Source: Natronohydrobacter sp.
Lineage (GTDB): Bacteria; Pseudomonadota; Alphaproteobacteria; Rhodobacterales; Rhodobacteraceae
Direction of reading: 5' to 3'
Length of the DNA: 56,436 bases
NCBI GenBank assembly: GCA_020832555.1
Contig: JAFIEM010000009.1
Span: forward strand, 1 to 56,436
Below are positions 49,547 to 56,436 of this stretch, piece after piece. The notes below the pieces were generated by a model. That model was given only the letters and a program-made list of their open reading frames with translations, was not told where the DNA came from and made no database searches. Each line of letters opens with the position of its first letter. The first letter of the stretch is position 1. A program made the translations under genes and the position numbers.

Positions 49547-50911
49547 TTATCCGTCATGGGTGCGGGTGACTGTCCGCATTGTGACCAGCTCCTCGGCCAT
49601 GGTCGGATGCACCGCCAGCGTGCGGTCGAAATCTGCCTTGGTTGCGCCCATCGCAATCGCGACCGCCGCAAGCTGGATCATTTCGCCCGACTGATCCGCG
49701 ACGATATGACACCCTAGCACCTTCTCGGTCCTGGCGCACACGATCAGTTTCATCAAGACCCGTTCGGCGCGCCCGATGAAGGCGGTGCGCATCGGGCGGA
49801 AGGCGGTGGCATAGACATGCACTGGCCCTGCTGCGCGGGCGTCTTCCTCGCTCAGCCCGACAGTGCCGAATTCAGGCTGGGTGAATACGGCCGTCGGGAT
49901 CAGGCTGTGATCGAATGTCGTCGGTTTGCCGCCGAAGATCGTATCGGCAAAGGCATGGCCTTCGCGGATCGCGACCGGGGTCAGATTCGCGCGATCCGTC
50001 ACATCACCCACGGCAAAGATCGACGGGATCGCGGTCTGGCTGTAGTCATCGACCGGGATCGCGCCATTGGGCTTCAGGTCTATCCCCAGAGCCTCCAGCC
50101 CCAGACCTGCCGTGTTGGGTTTGCGCCCGGTCGCAAAAAGGATCGCGTCATAGCGGGCATCATGGCCGGTGGTGGCCTTGACCAGATAGCCGGTGCCGTC
50201 GCGGGTGATGTCCTTGACATCGGTGCCCAGATGCAGCTTCACACCGTTTTCGCACATCTGATCGGCGATATGGCCGCGCGCTTCCTCGTCAAAGCCGCGC
50301 AGGATCTGCGCGCCGCGATAGAATTGCGTGGTTTTCACACCCAGCCCGTTGAAAATGCAGGAAAATTCCGACGCGATATAGCCACCACCCACGATCAGGA
50401 TCGAGCCGGGCAGCGCGTCCATCCCGAACACCTCGTTTGAGGTCATCGCCCCCAGCCCCTGCCATTTTTCCGGCACCACGGGCCAGCCCCCGGTCGCGAT
50501 CAGGATATGTTTGGCGCTGACGGTCTGGCCATCCGCAAGGCGGACCTCATGCGGGCCGTCAACTGTCGCGCGGCAATCATGGATGGTGACGCCCGCACGG
50601 TCCAACCCGCTGCGATAAGCGGCCTCCAGGCGCGACAATTCGCTTTCCAGCCGTGTGCGGAAGGCGGGCCAGTCGAAATCGCCGATCTGGGCGTCCCAGC
50701 CGTAATCCTGTGCTTCGGCCACCGCACCGGGAAAGCTGGACGCAAAGACCATCAGTTTCTTGGGCACACAGCCGCGAATGACGCAGGTGCCGCCCATGCG
50801 TGATTCCTCGGCCAGTGCGACGCGCGCGCCATATTGGCTGGCTGCGATCCGCGCTGCGCGCACGCCGCCCGAGCCACCGCCAATCACGAAAAGATCGAAA
50901 TCAAACGCCAT
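49547..50911 (-). CDS. gor: Glutathione-disulfide reductase
   Basis: FAD- and NADPH-dependent enzyme that keeps glutathione reduced in the cytosol. 454 aa: FAD-binding GGGSGGVRAARIAA, redox disulfide GGTCVIRGCVPKK, NADPH domain GGGYIASEF, and the C-terminal HPTMAEELVTMR with the active-site His–Glu. The CxxxxC spacing with ..IRGCVPKK is that of glutathione reductases. ATG 50911 selected; GAGGG precedes it. Confidence 0.93.
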   Translation of the reverse strand: MAFDFDLFVIGGGSGGVRAARIAASQYGARVALAEESRMGGTCVIRGCVPKKLMVFASSFPGAVAEAQDYGWDAQIGDFDWPAFRTRLESELSRLEAAYRSGLDRAGVTIHDCRATVDGPHEVRLADGQTVSAKHILIATGGWPVVPEKWQGLGAMTSNEVFGMDALPGSILIVGGGYIASEFSCIFNGLGVKTTQFYRGAQILRGFDEEARGHIADQMCENGVKLHLGTDVKDITRDGTGYLVKATTGHDARYDAILFATGRKPNTAGLGLEALGIDLKPNGAIPVDDYSQTAIPSIFAVGDVTDRANLTPVAIREGHAFADTIFGGKPTTFDHSLIPTAVFTQPEFGTVGLSEEDARAAGPVHVYATAFRPMRTAFIGRAERVLMKLIVCARTEKVLGCHIVADQSGEMIQLAAVAIAMGATKADFDRTLAVHPTMAEELVTMRTVTRTHDG

Positions 50912-50918
50912 GCTGCCC

Positions 50919-51707
50919 TCAGAGGTCCATGAAAATGTTGCGGGCCTCATCCAGATCGACCTGTCTTATGCTGGATTCCGGCGTGCCCGTGGTCAGGTCG
51001 CGCAATTCAACCGTGCCATTGGCATGGCCGATCACCACCTGATCGGCGATATCGACGAACAGCCCGTTTTCGACCACGCCCGGCACCTGATTGAGCACCA
51101 ACGAAAGCTGCCGCGCATTGCCGATCCGCCCCAGCGCAAGATCCAGGATGTAATTCCCCTCATCCGTGACATAGGGTTGGGTGCCATTCATGCGCAGGCT
51201 GGACTGGCGGCCCATCACATCCATCGAGGCGAGCACTTCCTCGACCAGCGCCTTGGTGGCGGGCCAGCCGAAAGGGATCACCTCGATCGGCAGGGGGAAG
51301 GCGCCGAGCGTTTTGACTTCCTTGGCCGCATCCGTGATCACGATCATCTGGTCCGAGGCCGTGGCCACGATCTTTTCCTGCAAAAGCGCGCCGCCGCCGC
51401 CCTTGATCAGCGTCAGTTCCGCGTCGAATTCGTCCGCGCCGTCAATGGTCAGATCGAGCCAGCGCGCTTCATCAAGCGAGACCACATTGATTCCCACTTC
51501 GCGGGCAAGCTGCGCCGTGCGGGCCGAGGTCGGCACGGCAATGATGCGCAAGCCGTCCTGCCGGACCCGCGCGCCCAGACGGCGCACCATCCATGCGGCG
51601 GTCGAGCCCGTGCCCAGGCCCACGCGCATCCCGTCCTGAACGAATTCGGCGGCGCAATGGGCGCTTGCGTATTTGGCGCGGTCGATGGGGGTCAAGTCAC
51701 TGGTCAT
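50919..51707 (-). CDS. rpiA: Ribose-5-phosphate isomerase A
   Basis: Interconverts ribose-5-phosphate and ribulose-5-phosphate in the pentose phosphate and Calvin pathways. 262 aa, family RpiA: GLGTGSTAAWMVRRLG, DGADEFD (catalytic Asp), KGGGGALLQEKIV (catalytic Glu region). 8 bp upstream of gor on the same strand. Confidence 0.95.
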   Translation of the reverse strand: MTSDLTPIDRAKYASAHCAAEFVQDGMRVGLGTGSTAAWMVRRLGARVRQDGLRIIAVPTSARTAQLAREVGINVVSLDEARWLDLTIDGADEFDAELTLIKGGGGALLQEKIVATASDQMIVITDAAKEVKTLGAFPLPIEVIPFGWPATKALVEEVLASMDVMGRQSSLRMNGTQPYVTDEGNYILDLALGRIGNARQLSLVLNQVPGVVENGLFVDIADQVVIGHANGTVELRDLTTGTPESSIRQVDLDEARNIFMDL

Positions 51708-51788
51708 CGCAGGCCCTTTGTCTGGCTCGCGCGTGTTATAGGCGGAGTCTGCCCTTGGACGAAAGGCGAAAAACAGAAGAAACCTGCC

Positions 51789-52166
51789 TCAGCGCTGGAT
51801 CGAGGCCAGGTAGGCGTCCAGTGCGATGATCTTTTCGGGCAGGGGGCGGGACAAGCCGGAGGGCGTTTGCACGCGCATCAGCCGCCCGGTCAGCAGATCG
51901 CCGAAATTCGGCATTTCCGCCCCGGCATAGGCGGTCTGGCCCTGCGCATAGCCATCGAGCTTGTCGAGAATAAGCATCCGCGGGTAGGTTCCGCCCGCCC
52001 GCGCCGTGATCTGCGTCAGGTCAGGCACCTGCGCGCCGCCGCGCGCGTCGGCACCGTGACAGGCCGCGCAATTCTGGACATAGAGCGCGCGCCCGGCCTG
52101 TGGGCTTGTCCAGGGGGAACAGCCCGCGAGAGCGGCGGCAAGGGAAAGGGGAAGAACAGTTCGCAT
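51789..52166 (-). CDS. Lipid-anchored cytochrome c
   Basis: 125-aa class I cytochrome c with lipobox LAGC (Cys15), one haem site CAACHGADARGG and a Met ligand in AEMPNFGDLL. It is therefore an inner-membrane-tethered periplasmic electron carrier. Partners unknown. Convergent arrangement is absent; it heads the minus-strand series before rpiA, with an 81-bp gap. Confidence 0.88.
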   Translation of the reverse strand: MRTVLPLSLAAALAGCSPWTSPQAGRALYVQNCAACHGADARGGAQVPDLTQITARAGGTYPRMLILDKLDGYAQGQTAYAGAEMPNFGDLLTGRLMRVQTPSGLSRPLPEKIIALDAYLASIQR

Positions 52167-52300
52167 CTGCGCACAGTGCCGCAGAAAATCACGCCTGCCA
52201 AGGGGGCAGGTCTTGTTTGACCGCCCGCATGTCGCAAGATGGATGGTGTTTGCGCGCGACAGACCTAGATTAGGCCCAGCGAACAGGGAAGGGACCGCGC

Positions 52301-53671
52301 ATGTTTCTGTCGGTTTTCGAGATATTCAAGGTGGGGATCGGACCGTCCTCGTCGCATACAATGGGGCCGATGGTGGCGGCGGCGCGGTTTCTGGACCATC
52401 TGCGCGGGCTTTCATTCCGCGTGGCGGGACTGCGGGCGTCGCTGCATGGTTCGCTGGCCTTTACCGGGGTCGGTCACGCCACGGATCGCGCGGTGATCCT
52501 TGGGCTCGCGGGCTTCACGCCCGACGCCTATGATGCCGAGCGCGCCGAGGCGATGCTGGCGCAGATCGAGGCCGAGGGCCGTGTCAGTGTCGCAGGTCTG
52601 GGCGATCTGCGCTTCGCGCCCAAGACCGACCTGATCTTTGATTACGGTCCGGCTCTGCCCGGCCACGCCAATGGCATGCGGTTGATGGGGCTGGACGCGC
52701 AGGGCGATGTGATCGCGCAGGAAACCTATTATTCCATTGGCGGCGGTTTTGTCGTGACCGAGGCCGAACTGGGCCGCGAACCTGTCCAGTCCGGCCCGGC
52801 CATCCCTTATCCGTTCGACGCTGCGGCACAGATGTTGGACATGGCGCGCGCAAGCGGCAAGAGCATTGCGCAGATGAAACGCGCCAATGAACTGGCGCGG
52901 ATGGGGCCGGGAACGCTCGATCAGGGTCTGATGCGGCTGTGGCAGGTGATGCGCGACTGTATCGACCGGGGGTTGGTCACGGATGGGGTGCTGCCCGGCG
53001 GGCTGAAGGTCAAACGCCGCGCGAAAGCGATCCGCGAGGCGCTGGAGCGCGAGGCGGGCCTAAACCTGACAGCACCGCATGTGATCAATGACTGGATCAG
53101 CACTTATGCGATGGCGGTGAACGAAGAAAACGCGGCAGGCGGGCAGGTCGTGACGGCCCCCACCAATGGCGCGGCGGGCGTGGTGCCCGCTACGATCCGC
53201 TACTGGCTGGACCATGTGCCGGGCGCACGCGAGTCGCAGGTGGGCGAGTTCCTGCTGACGGCTGCGGCGATTGGCGGGCTGGTCAAGCACAATGCCTCGA
53301 TCTCTGGCGCGGAATGTGGCTGTCAGGCGGAAGTGGGGTCCGCAGCCGCGATGGCGGCGGCAGGGCTGGCGGCCGTGCTGGGCGGCACGCCCGAACAAGT
53401 GGAAAACGCAGCCGAAATCGCGCTGGAACATCACCTTGGCATGACCTGCGACCCGGTGAAAGGGCTGGTGCAGGTGCCCTGCATCGAGCGCAACGGGCTG
53501 GGGGCGATCAAGGCCGTGTCGGCAGCATCCCTCGCGCTGCGCGGCGATGGTACGCATTTCATGCCGCTCGACAATTGCATCGAGGCGATGCGCCAGACCG
53601 GGGCGGATATGTCCGAGAAATACAAGGAAACCGCGCTGGGCGGGCTGGCGGTGAATGTGCCGAATTGCTGA
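52301..53671 (+). CDS. sdaA: L-serine ammonia-lyase
   Basis: Iron–sulfur L-serine dehydratase that converts serine to pyruvate and ammonia. 456 aa, single-chain type: beta domain at the N-terminus ([19 protein letters not shown]) fused to the alpha domain with [4Fe-4S] Cys ligands in [11 protein letters not shown] and [15 protein letters not shown], followed by [14 protein letters not shown] with the C-terminal Cys that occupies the active site in the family. All ligands are present. Upstream of cutA with a 75-bp gap. Confidence 0.94.
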
Positions 53672-53746
53672 GGCTTTGACGCAGGTCATGGAAGCCACAG
53701 CCCGGCGCTGGCATTCTGCATGGATCAGACCAGAGGGAGCCCGCGC

Positions 53747-54079
53747 ATGGAGTGCTTTGAAGTCGAAGTCACCTGCCCTGACAAGGATAGCGCCCGCGCG
53801 ATTGCGACGGCCTGCCTGAAAGCGCGTCTGGTCGCTTGTGCCAATCTTCTGCCCAAGGTCGAGAGCCTGTTCTGCTGGCAGGGCCAGATTGATTCCGAAA
53901 GTGAAATCCTGTTGCGCCTGAAAACACCTGCGCGGAATTTCGATGCCACCTGCGAGGTGATCCGCGCCCATCACCCCTACGCGATACCCGCGATCGTGGC
54001 GCTGCCGGTGCTGGCGATGGGGCCGGGCGTGGCCGGTTGGATCGCGTCCGAGACTCAGGACGCGAAAATCTGTGACTGA
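53747..54079 (+). CDS. cutA: Divalent-ion tolerance protein CutA
   Basis: Small trimeric alpha/beta protein (110 aa) of the CutA family, related in fold to PII. Signature parts: EVEVTCPDKDSARAIATACLKARLVACANLLPKVESLFCWQGQID and RAHHPYAIPAIVALPV. Precise role unclear despite the name. ATG 53747 follows AGAGGGA; ATG 53720 is the alternative. Its 3' end overlaps the convergent VOC gene by 25 bp. Confidence 0.93.
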   Translation: MECFEVEVTCPDKDSARAIATACLKARLVACANLLPKVESLFCWQGQIDSESEILLRLKTPARNFDATCEVIRAHHPYAIPAIVALPVLAMGPGVAGWIASETQDAKICD

Positions 54080-54468
54080 TCCGCGAAGCCCTTGACCTCG
54101 ATCGGATTGCCGGACGGGTCGCGGAAGAACATTGTCCATTGCTCGCCCGGCTGGCCCTTGAAGCGCAGGTTCGGCGGCAGCACAAAGTTGGCACCAGCGG
54201 CTTGCAACCGTTCCGCAAGGGCCTGAAAGCGCGCGAGATCCAGCACCAGCCCGAAATGCGGCATCGGCACCATGTGATCCCCCACCTTGCCGGTCGGTGC
54301 ATTGGCGAAGGGCTCGCCCAGATGCAGGCTGATCTGATGGCCGAAGAAATCGAAATCGACCCAGGTCTCGGTACTGCGCCCCTCGCGACAGCCCAGCACA
54401 CCGCCATAGAAGGCGCGCGCCTCGTCCAGATCACGGACATGATAGGCGAAATGAAATGGCATCAGCAT
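54055..54468 (-). CDS. VOC-superfamily (glyoxalase-like) protein
   Basis: 137-aa vicinal-oxygen-chelate protein with two beta-alpha-beta-beta-beta modules: FHFAYHVRDLDEARAFYGGVLGCREG and HFGLVLDLARFQALAERLQAAGANF, ending FFRDPSGNPIEVKGF with the metal-ligand Glu. Such proteins act as dioxygenases, glyoxalases or resistance proteins; the substrate is not clear. ATG 54468 has GAGGAG eight bases upstream; a long N-terminal ORF extension to 54762 is not supported. Confidence 0.85.
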   Translation of the reverse strand: MLMPFHFAYHVRDLDEARAFYGGVLGCREGRSTETWVDFDFFGHQISLHLGEPFANAPTGKVGDHMVPMPHFGLVLDLARFQALAERLQAAGANFVLPPNLRFKGQPGEQWTMFFRDPSGNPIEVKGFADQSQIFAS

Positions 54469-54519
54469 CGGACAAACTCCTCTTTCCCTTTCAGTCTTGC
54501 AAAAATATCCGCGGGGATT

Positions 54520-54545
54520 GTCAAGGGGGGTGCACCCCCCTTGAC
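54520..54545. repeat. 26-bp perfect palindrome
   Basis: GTCAAGGGGGGTG followed by its exact reverse complement, 52 bp upstream of the VOC start. No T-run. Purpose unknown; either operator or repeated intergenic element. Confidence 0.7.
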
Positions 54546-54598
54546 GCACCTTTCGGCCCTGCGGACGCACTGAGAGCCGACAGTCCCCAGCGCCCCAC

Positions 54599-54627
54599 TG
54601 GACGCCCAAATGATAGCCCCCTATAAG
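54599..54627 (+). promoter_or_regulatory. Sigma70-like promoter for the ileS leader
   Basis: TGGACG (54599–54604), a 17-base spacer, then TATAAG (54622–54627). Four of six and five of six matches to the consensus boxes with ideal spacing. The expected start point, about seven bases past the −10, is the A of the ATG at 54634. Confidence 0.65.
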
Positions 54628-54633
54628 GCGCGC

Positions 54634-54681
54634 ATGTCTGGCTTTATGATCATTCTGCGAATTAGCGACCCGGCACTCTGA
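54634..54681 (+). CDS. Putative Ile-rich leader peptide of ileS
   Basis: 15 codons, MSGFMIILRISDPAL, with adjacent Ile codons at positions 6–7 and another at 10, then TGA. No ribosome site precedes it and the predicted transcript begins at its AUG, so translation would be leaderless, as known for the trp leader of Sinorhizobium. The stop lies in the loop of the hairpin at 54669–54699, a layout typical of ribosome-mediated attenuators. Inferred to sense charged tRNA-Ile and adjust ileS expression; not shown experimentally. Confidence 0.6.
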   Translation: MSGFMIILRISDPAL

Positions 54682-54699
54682 CGCGCCCGGAGTGCCGGG
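54669..54699 (+). promoter_or_regulatory. Leader hairpin of ileS
   Basis: CCCGGCACTC (54669–54678) pairs exactly with GAGTGCCGGG (54690–54699). The left arm is the end of the leader-peptide coding sequence; the loop contains its stop codon. A second stem, TTGGCG at 54706–54711 with CGCCAA at 54732–54737, ends directly before the ATG at 54738. No T-run follows, so the mechanism may be translational or Rho-linked. Confidence 0.6.
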
Positions 54700-54749
54700 C
54701 CAGCCTTGGCGCCAGCCCCCTCTCTTGAATTCGCCAAATGAGACCGGAT

Positions 54750-56436
54750 ATGACCGAGACACCTGACTATAAAGACACTGTTTTTCTGCCCCGCACCGAG
54801 TTCCCGATGCGCGCGGGCCTGCCTGCGCGCGAACCTGAATGGCTGGCCCGATGGGCGCGGATCGGGATCTATGACCGTCTGCGCGCGACTGCCGGGGATC
54901 GCCGCCCCTTCATCCTGCATGACGGCCCCCCTTACGCCAACGGCCATCTGCATATCGGCCATGCGCTGAACAAGGTGCTGAAGGACTTCATCACCCGCAG
55001 CCAGCAGATGCTGGGGCGCGACGCGCGCTATGTGCCGGGCTGGGATTGCCACGGCCTGCCCATCGAATGGAAGATCGAGGAACAATACCGCGCCAAGGGT
55101 CTGGACAAGGACGCGGTGGATATCGTCGATTTCCGCCAGGAATGCCGCCGCTTCGCCGAAGGCTGGATCGATGTGCAGCGCGAGGAATTCAAGCGTCTGG
55201 GCATCACCGGGAAATGGGACAAGCCTTACCTCACGATGGATTACCACGCCGAAGCGGTGATCGCGGATGAGTTCATGAAACTCGTGATGAACGGGTCTTT
55301 GTATCAAGGCTCCAAGCCCGTGATGTGGTCGCCCGTGGAGAAAACCGCGCTGGCCGAGGCGGAGGTCGAGTATCACGAGCATACGAGCCACACGATCTGG
55401 GTGAAATTCCCGGTCACGTTGTTCGGGGATGCGGCGTCGGATTTGAGTATTTTTGGCAAGATGAAGCCTGTGTCGGTGGTGATCTGGACCACGACCCCCT
55501 GGACCATCCCTCAAAACCGCGCGGTCTGTTTCGGGCCAGAGATCGCTTACGGGCTGTATGAAGTGTCTGAGGTGTTGGAGGGCGGCAAGGAAGAGGTCGG
55601 CGCGCTTGTCGTTCTGGCAGACGCTTTGGCCGAAAGCGCGCTGGTCGCGGCGAAAGTGAAGGCCGAGCGCACGCGCGATGTGTCCGCCTCCGAACTGGGC
55701 GCGCTGACCCTTGCCCATCCCTTCCGCGGCGTCGAAGGCGCGCTGGGCGAATGGGATTTCGACGTGCCCATGCTGCCCGGCGACCATGTCACCGATGACG
55801 CAGGCACGGGCTTTGTCCACACCGCCCCCAGCCACGGCGATGACGACTACCAGATTGGGCTGAAACACGGCCTGCCGATGACCTATAATGTGCTGGAAGA
55901 TGGCAGCTACCGCGCCGATCTGCCGCTGTTCGGGGGCGAGGTGATCATCAAGCCCGATGGCAAGGAAGGCGGCGCGAATGTCGCCGTGATCAAGCAACTG
56001 GCCTATGCAGGCGCGCTTTTCGCCAAGGGCAAGCTGCGCCATTCCTACCCGCATAGCTGGCGGTCGAAAGCGCCGCTGATCTATCGCAACACGCCACAGT
56101 GGTTCGCGGCCATCGACAAGCCGCTGGACGACGGGATGGGCGCGCATGGCGATACGATCCGGGCACGCGCGCTGGAGAGCATCGACAGATTGGTGAAATG
56201 GACGCCGCAAACCGGGCGCAACCGGCTCTATTCGATGATCGAGGCGCGGCCCGACTGGGTGCTCTCGCGCCAGCGCGCCTGGGGTGTGCCGCTGACCTGT
56301 TTCGTGAAAAAGGGTGCGAAGCCGAGTGATCCGGATTTCCTGTTGCGCGATGCGGAGGTCAACGCGCGGATCAGGGCGGCCTTCGAGGCGGAAGGCGCAG
56401 ATGTCTGGTATGTGCAAGGATTCAAGGAACGCATCC
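54750..56436 (+). CDS. ileS: Isoleucyl-tRNA synthetase (5' part; continues past the window)
   Basis: Class I aminoacyl-tRNA synthetase charging tRNA-Ile. About 562 of a usual 950–1000 codons are in view and the frame stays open to the end. Seen: HIGH-type motif HLHIGH (residues 66–71) after DGPPYANG, GWDCHGLPIE, the start of the editing domain (VVIWTTTPWTIPQN, and GTGFVHTAPSHGDDDY), and DWVLSRQRAWGVPL with the zinc-independent catalytic core. The KMSKS motif lies outside the window. Two starts possible, ATG 54738 or 54750, neither with a clear ribosome site. Likely under attenuation by the preceding leader. Confidence 0.95.
   Translation, partial: MTETPDYKDTVFLPRTEFPMRAGLPAREPEWLARWARIGIYDRLRATAGDRRPFILHDGPPYANGHLHIGHALNKVLKDFITRSQQMLGRDARYVPGWDCHGLPIEWKIEEQYRAKGLDKDAVDIVDFRQECRRFAEGWIDVQREEFKRLGITGKWDKPYLTMDYHAEAVIADEFMKLVMNGSLYQGSKPVMWSPVEKTALAEAEVEYHEHTSHTIWVKFPVTLFGDAASDLSIFGKMKPVSVVIWTTTPWTIPQNRAVCFGPEIAYGLYEVSEVLEGGKEEVGALVVLADALAESALVAAKVKAERTRDVSASELGALTLAHPFRGVEGALGEWDFDVPMLPGDHVTDDAGTGFVHTAPSHGDDDYQIGLKHGLPMTYNVLEDGSYRADLPLFGGEVIIKPDGKEGGANVAVIKQLAYAGALFAKGKLRHSYPHSWRSKAPLIYRNTPQWFAAIDKPLDDGMGAHGDTIRARALESIDRLVKWTPQTGRNRLYSMIEARPDWVLSRQRAWGVPLTCFVKKGAKPSDPDFLLRDAEVNARIRAAFEAEGADVWYVQGFKERI

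Follow-up and report, generated by a model that had tools for sequence, protein, structure and literature searches.

The window analyzed in this study, a stretch of 56,436 nucleotides, ends within ileS, the gene encoding isoleucyl-tRNA synthetase (54750-56436, plus strand, 3' end outside the window). The encoded protein matched NCBIfam TIGR00392 with an E value of 2.5e-145 and 485.8 bits. This score is under the whole-protein cut-off (621.4), and the ORF is truncated by the window end. The start of ileS is likely 54750, with the in-frame ATG at 54738 as the alternative, because relatives align from the former ATG. Judged by eye, neighboring ORFs resemble genes for a glutathione reductase-like protein (49547-50950), rpiA (50919-51707), L-serine dehydratase (52301-53671), and a CutA-like protein (53720-54079). 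A perfect palindrome, TCAAGGGGGGTGCACCCCCCTTGA, occupies 54521-54544 between a minus-strand glyoxalase-like gene (also assigned by eye) and the ileS promoter. It has no second exact copy in the window and is also found in seven other ileS loci, two of which are the same contig.

The region directly ahead of ileS contained a compact leader on the plus strand. The -35 element TGGACG (54599-54604) and the -10 element TATAAG (54622-54627), read directly, are separated by the 17-nt spacer given in the preliminary description, and six bases lie between TATAAG and the leader ATG at 54634, in agreement with its placement of that codon. A transcript with its +1 at 54634, as expected from the -10 spacing, would be leaderless and would open with an ORF of 15 codons, MSGFMIILRISDPAL and a stop (54634-54681). 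As had been described, this ORF holds the Ile-Ile codons ATC ATT (54649-54654), part of the leader's Ile enrichment, and a third Ile codon, ATT at 54661-54663. The latter lies in the heptamer CGA-ATT-A (54658-54664), composed of a rare Arg codon, the putative sensor Ile codon, and A, which was brought out by the open upstream scans reported below. The hairpin SL1 (54669-54699) begins 35 nt from the expected +1, and its arms, CCCGGCACTC (54669-54678) and GAGTGCCGGG (54690-54699), form 10 bp with zero mismatch around a loop that begins with the leader stop TGA (54679-54681), confirming the perfect hairpin first described. In isolation, SL1 folds with -23.5 kcal/mol and two extra pairs inside the loop, and the fold of 54634-54760 has a z value of -3.2. 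A T-run 3' of SL1 is absent in the window, as previously noticed. A sigma-70 consensus scan reported no site at the leader promoter, because the scan requires T at -10 position 6, and TATAAG has no T there. Rfam gave no match in 50000-56436 of the window up to E 1 or in 10 related loci up to E 0.1; with no such match and only 35 nt before SL1, the Stem I, specifier loop, and antiterminator of a T-box were not found.

The distribution of the leader was examined with an IleS N-terminus search of 60 genomes, 59 of which had a match, some solely to other synthetases; in named genome contigs, the best 80 of 589 matches were retained. Among 111 loci, 90 carried CGAATTA followed 2-6 nt on by an SL1-like foot, no more than 600 nt from ileS. 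A covariance model (R1), seeded with 39 leaders including the window's own, gave a single strong match in the window's genome (E 5e-12, the runner-up having 3.5). At E 0.01, R1 matched 184 of the 199 family genomes (one match in 177, two in 7, and none in 15), a count in which part of the seed sequences had been drawn from these same genomes. It also matched 73 of 289 class genomes at E 0.05 and 32 of 199 phylum genomes, all 32 of which belong to the class. We read 100 of 120 stretches (60 of 80 from the family and 40 of 40 from the class). ileS lay downstream in all 32 family loci inspected (L115-L145, L150) and in 24 of the 66 class loci read (including L150), but not in the other 42; because the model that found them had been trained on CGAATTA, the class rows carry a selection bias. 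The leader MKFNKQIIIRIINPTSL is kept before ileS in L163, a locus of a small genome (about 1.1 Mb). By the R1 matches, the leader is widespread, and the module occurs in many Alphaproteobacteria.

Statistics on the leader ORF were taken from 171 distinct leaders in 181 loci, every one selected for CGAATTA. An in-frame ATG within 75 nt occurred in the CGA-ATT frame in 168 of the 171 leaders, against 16 and 18 for the other two frames. In the 153 leaders with a TA-type -10 box, 28.5% of the codons lying between ATG and CGA encoded Ile (367 of 1289), compared with 4.7% in ileS ORFs (1656 of 34988), and this enrichment was concentrated at codons -1 to -3. On this comparison, the leader ORF is real, and its frame suggests that it is translated. 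The start codon, the frame, the Ile codons, and the stem, whose conservation in related Rhodobacterales the preliminary description had named as support, were all conserved. Additionally, 126 of 152 Rhodobacterales leaders (1.0 in shuffles) had a TATAA-like box 5-8 nt ahead of an in-frame ATG, at 6-7 nt in 121 of the 126, and the spacing to the -35 element was 17 nt in 120 of the 123 Rhodobacterales leaders in which such an element was matched. This promoter geometry fits a leaderless transcript. For Methylorubrum, a mapped start is reported 150 nt upstream of ileS with the -10 element TAGAAG (PMC9320726).

The stop codon lay inside SL1 in 181 of 186 ileS leaders; among leaders with AUU but a downstream gene other than ileS, the ORF extends beyond SL1 in 11 of 34, so the position of the stop is not essential. 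The codon after the sensor encoded Thr in 68, Ile in 52, Ser in 46, Met in 3, Arg in 1, and Asn in 1 of the 171 leaders; its first base, A, was fixed by selection in this set and was found unasked in the open scan. Since the residue varies while its first base stays A, the constraint appears to be at the level of RNA or codon context rather than of the peptide.

The open scans, before ileS and leuA, are free of the CGAATTA selection bias. For ileS, about 210 nt upstream of 109 distinct loci was scanned for CGA-NNN-A, candidates also requiring an ATG in frame, a stop no more than 75 nt away, and a hairpin. All 84 candidates had ATT as the free codon, and shuffles gave 0.4 candidates per set and none with ATT; the shuffles for the scans and for the spacing, pairing, and promoter tests preserve base composition only. 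Candidates were found in 69 of 71 Rhodobacterales loci and in 15 of 38 other ileS loci, leaving 23 of these 38 in which the scan found no CGA-NNN-A leader. The two Rhodobacterales loci missed, L045 (CGC-ATT-A) and L062 (CAG-ATT-A), have the same leader otherwise, and CGA is replaced by GCC in L150. When CGA alone was required, 84 of 85 candidates were CGA-ATT-A, and when ATT alone was required, CGA preceded it in 84 of 90 and A followed it in 86 of 90. In the ileS ORFs of Rhodobacterales, 212 of the 1656 Ile codons are ATT, and 48 of the 2192 Arg codons are CGA. A chance coincidence of ORF and hairpin, for which we found no supporting point, is a negligible prospect, being refuted by the 84 candidates against 0.4 in shuffles and by the model's matches in 184 of 199 family genomes.

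The identity of the sensor codon changed with the downstream gene. Among 62 class rows with CGA-NNN-A, 58 had AUU and four had CUU, and all four CUU rows were leaders of leuA. A search for leuA covered 115 class genomes, 32 of which had a match, and yielded 30 loci. The open scan before leuA found 22 CGA-NNN-A candidates in 16 of the 30 loci, with CUU in 22 of 22, and none in the other 14 loci; shuffles gave 0.2 candidates and zero CTT. With CGA alone required, CTT-A was present in 22 of 28 candidates; the ORFs of leuA at these loci use CTT for 38 of their 859 Leu codons. An example of the leuA leader peptides is MTIRTDTGLLGLRLIGPAS. In L308, L310, L312, L313, L321, and L324, a second CGACTTA, accompanied by a hairpin and an ATG in frame, was located closer to leuA, so that two consecutive modules may precede leuA in some cases. 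The change of codon before leuA shows that the sensor codon matters, and the codon after CGA, 8 nt from SL1, very probably senses charged tRNA.

The same comparison bears on two other explanations. CGANUUA could be a site bound or cut by a protein or RNase, with the ORF incidental or a vehicle for masking it, and the conservation of CGA and the following A at the nucleotide level, together with the UU common to the sensors, would suit such a site. We consider it improbable, because the variable base matches the amino acid served by the downstream gene (AUU for ileS, CUU for leuA), and the frame is conserved along with enriched neighboring Ile codons. Alternatively, the leader peptide might be trans-acting, a role reported for peTrpL of Sinorhizobium; Caulobacter ileS also has a leader CDS on record, and a peptide end, R-I-x-x-P-A, is recurrent among the leaders. 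This is highly unlikely, given that the residue after Ile is variable while its first base is A, and that Leu takes the place of Ile before leuA.

Sensors starting with C, G, or T were sought together with this hairpin by a pattern search of 192 class genomes, which gave 14 rows in 12 genomes, against 11 hits for the reversed-pattern control. Ten rows represented nine leuA loci with CUU, one was a non-leader (L346), and three came from two genomes of one genus. In L339 and L340, CUU and GUU modules stand in tandem in one ORF (MITKTSQRRLTDPAF...VRVTGPVP), with an ACT-like gene downstream. A wider search for GUU in 385 genomes gave 4 rows, against 12 reversed-control hits, and added a single place in a third genome, the non-leader L355, with two overlapping rows and no in-frame ATG. 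Sensors for Ile and Leu are therefore well supported by the comparison, and the Val sensor CGAGTTA is tentative because of the numbers of reversed-control hits in both searches.

A gene for a small ACT-like protein was present downstream in 27 of the 42 non-ileS class loci, as judged by a loose sequence motif that misses some visible by eye (e.g., L152 and L241). Three of these proteins gave weak Pfam matches, those to ACT having E 0.013 and 0.028, below the cut-offs, and the one compared with NCBIfam had no match. The protein follows an Ile module in L146, L239 (e.g., CFSIHAAAEPGVMPRVLELFAKRNLVP), L165, and others; in L155, the ACT-like gene is followed by the threonine dehydratase gene ilvA; and in L246, two CGAATTA heptamers occur serially in one leader (GRIIGRISNPVL), with an ACT-like gene downstream. 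The ACT-like protein is possibly a regulatory subunit for branched-chain synthesis.

SL1 also has the marks of a conserved structure. Two-sided changes were present in 5 of its 10 pairs among 39 sequences, a number reached by 3 of 500 shuffles; structures slid along the alignment had 2-4 such pairs, and only 31-49% of their cells were paired, compared with 94% for SL1. The z values of SL1, with means of -3.0 to -3.7, are inflated because the best hairpin per leader was taken. Between the C of CGA and the first pair of SL1, the distance is 11 nt in 22 of 23 leaders of the window's genus, 111 of 122 other Rhodobacterales leaders, 31 of 41 other ileS leaders, 25 of 34 leaders with AUU but not ileS, and 9 of 24 leuA leaders, so that the spacing is looser before leuA. 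A covariance model with the sensor codon and loop masked as N (R2) was rejected, since the window's own leader was unlisted up to E 10. The 12 R2 places read were mostly unrelated hairpins, with one leuA leader (L277) and one ileS leader already known (L281, the same as L258). In the R2-stage rows, preselected for at least 7 of 8 pairs and hence biased in the share paired, 4 pairs had two-sided changes, which does not exceed the shuffles (3.2; 176 of 500), although the number of such cells does (33 compared with 9.3).

The leader, its frame, the promoter geometry, the Ile codons, the sensor codon, the spacing, and SL1, as recovered by comparison, are consistent with a ribosome-mediated attenuator that would sense charged tRNA-Ile and raise ileS when it is short. 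We consider this reading probable; it was proposed in the preliminary description and is supported by the conservation and by the codon swap before leuA. The translation, the stalling, its sign, and the output we infer as follows. Transcription would begin at the AUG, and the ribosome would load on the 5' end, read the Ile-rich codons, and then wait at CGA-AUU. CGA is read by a tRNA with the anticodon ICG and NUU by G34 tRNAs, both by wobble, AUU forming G-U with the anticodon GAU. SL1 starts 8 nt past the first base of the sensor codon, and the front of a ribosome with this codon in its A site is expected about 8 nt downstream. With enough charged tRNA-Ile, the ribosome would reach the stop in SL1 and leave, SL1 would form, and less ileS would be made; when charged tRNA-Ile is scarce, a ribosome held on AUU would cover the CCCGG foot, SL1 would not form, and ileS would be expressed. 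By the same footprint estimate, a ribosome stalled earlier, on the Ile codons strongly enriched at -1 to -3, would fall short of SL1, so that SL1 could form under strong starvation.

The output of the proposed attenuator may differ among groups. A U-tract (at least four T in the 7 nt after SL1) was limited to 1 of 122 leaders in the family and 3 of 23 in the window's genus; elsewhere, it was present in 12 of 41 other ileS leaders, 4 of 33 leaders with AUU but not ileS, and 4 of 24 leuA leaders. Where the leader has a U-tract, intrinsic termination would be the output, and in the window's family, without one, Rho-dependent termination or an effect on ileS translation or stability would take its place. 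The preliminary description also had a second stem abutting the ileS start, which did not hold up: it comprises three pairs in the window fold and is missing from the consensus of 28 leaders of the genus. That consensus likewise lacks the second stem GGYG..CRCC found directly after SL1 in 124 Rhodobacterales leaders outside the window's genus (e.g., L040 and L046), in which the pair types at one position were C-G in 73, U-A in 34, and U-G in 4. A conserved antiterminator, formed by the right arm of SL1 and a downstream GGCG, was rejected, being at shuffle level outside the genus; the pairing of this arm with the downstream 40 nt was at shuffle level in four of five groups, with a weak signal (mean z -0.73) in the window's genus. 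In the window fold, GCGAAUU of the leader pairs with AAUUCGC at the ileS start, a pairing absent from most leaders. Helices of at least six Watson-Crick pairs between the element and downstream sequence occurred in 3 of 23 leaders of the genus (expected, 1.4), 9 of 122 of the family (4.0), 1 of 41 other ileS leaders (2.2), 3 of 34 leaders with AUU but not ileS (1.6), and 2 of 24 leuA leaders (1.4). The excess is small, and this pairing is rejected as a general mechanism.

With almost no U-tract, no conserved competing structure, and the expected effect of upstream stalls, the output in the window's family may be Rho-dependent or at ileS translation. An explanation that keeps the sensor and replaces hairpin termination, with the position of the ribosome setting Rho access, mRNA cleavage, or ileS initiation, is a serious contender, although we lean somewhat against it. 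The near lack of U-tracts in the family, the compensatory second stem outside the window's genus, and the leader ORFs that run past SL1 favor it, whereas the U-tracts of ileS leaders outside Rhodobacterales and the lack of clear conservation of the long-range pairing, which in the window fold would conceal the start of ileS, argue against it.

Like a classic attenuator, the ribosome-mediated attenuator proposed here has a short ORF enriched in codons for the amino acid under control. It would nevertheless not be of the classic trp type, although it would work like a ribosome-mediated one, because neither the paired antiterminator nor the U-tract was found. More broadly, the leaders may represent an ancestral alphaproteobacterial module in which CGA-[NUU]-A stands at a fixed distance from a single hairpin and senses one charged tRNA with no competing antiterminator. 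One base would retarget it among Ile, Leu, and Val (the last in one genus, in tandem), and the rare wobble-read pair of codons would provide a decoding delay. Our judgment on this broader proposal is evenly balanced.

Attenuation of a synthetase gene by a leader peptide sensing its own product is known from pheST of Escherichia coli, which uses tandem Phe codons and a classic terminator/antiterminator and is not leaderless. In Gram-positive bacteria, the T-box before ileS senses uncharged tRNA-Ile by direct tRNA binding, with no ORF. In Caulobacter crescentus, a leader CDS of ileS, CCNA_03934, has been named and served as a negative control in one overexpression plate assay, and a putative leader CDS is shown for trpS; for ilvBN, stalling at tandem Ile/Val codons blocks a rho-independent terminator hairpin (PMC4117421). 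In its accessible text, that account offers no mechanism, motif, or comparison for ileS (PMC4117421). An alphaproteobacterial leader CDS is common to both systems, and the logic proposed here, in which a stall blocks SL1, is the one stated there for ilvBN (PMC4117421); ilvBN has a rho-independent terminator, whereas leaders of the window's family are without a U-tract. The Caulobacter ileS leader is likely this module. In Sinorhizobium meliloti, the transcript of trpL (rnTrpL/peTrpL) opens with a short leaderless ORF (PMC10117765). The ORF before ileS is probably of this leaderless kind; trpL is concerned with Trp and a biosynthetic gene, and the present ORF with Ile and ileS. We know of no CGA-NUU-A module in trpL. 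In our searches of an open-access library, we found no account of the module or of attenuation of ileS in Alphaproteobacteria; a 1994 paper on ilvBN or a 2004 survey of proteobacterial attenuators could contain one.

If the proposed attenuator is correct, an essential synthetase would, in most members of the window's family and in some other Alphaproteobacteria, be run by a leaderless translation sensor, which would stand where Gram-positive bacteria have a T-box. As the module is small, has a single hairpin, and appears to be codon-swappable, the role of the rare Arg codon before the sensor would be directly testable.
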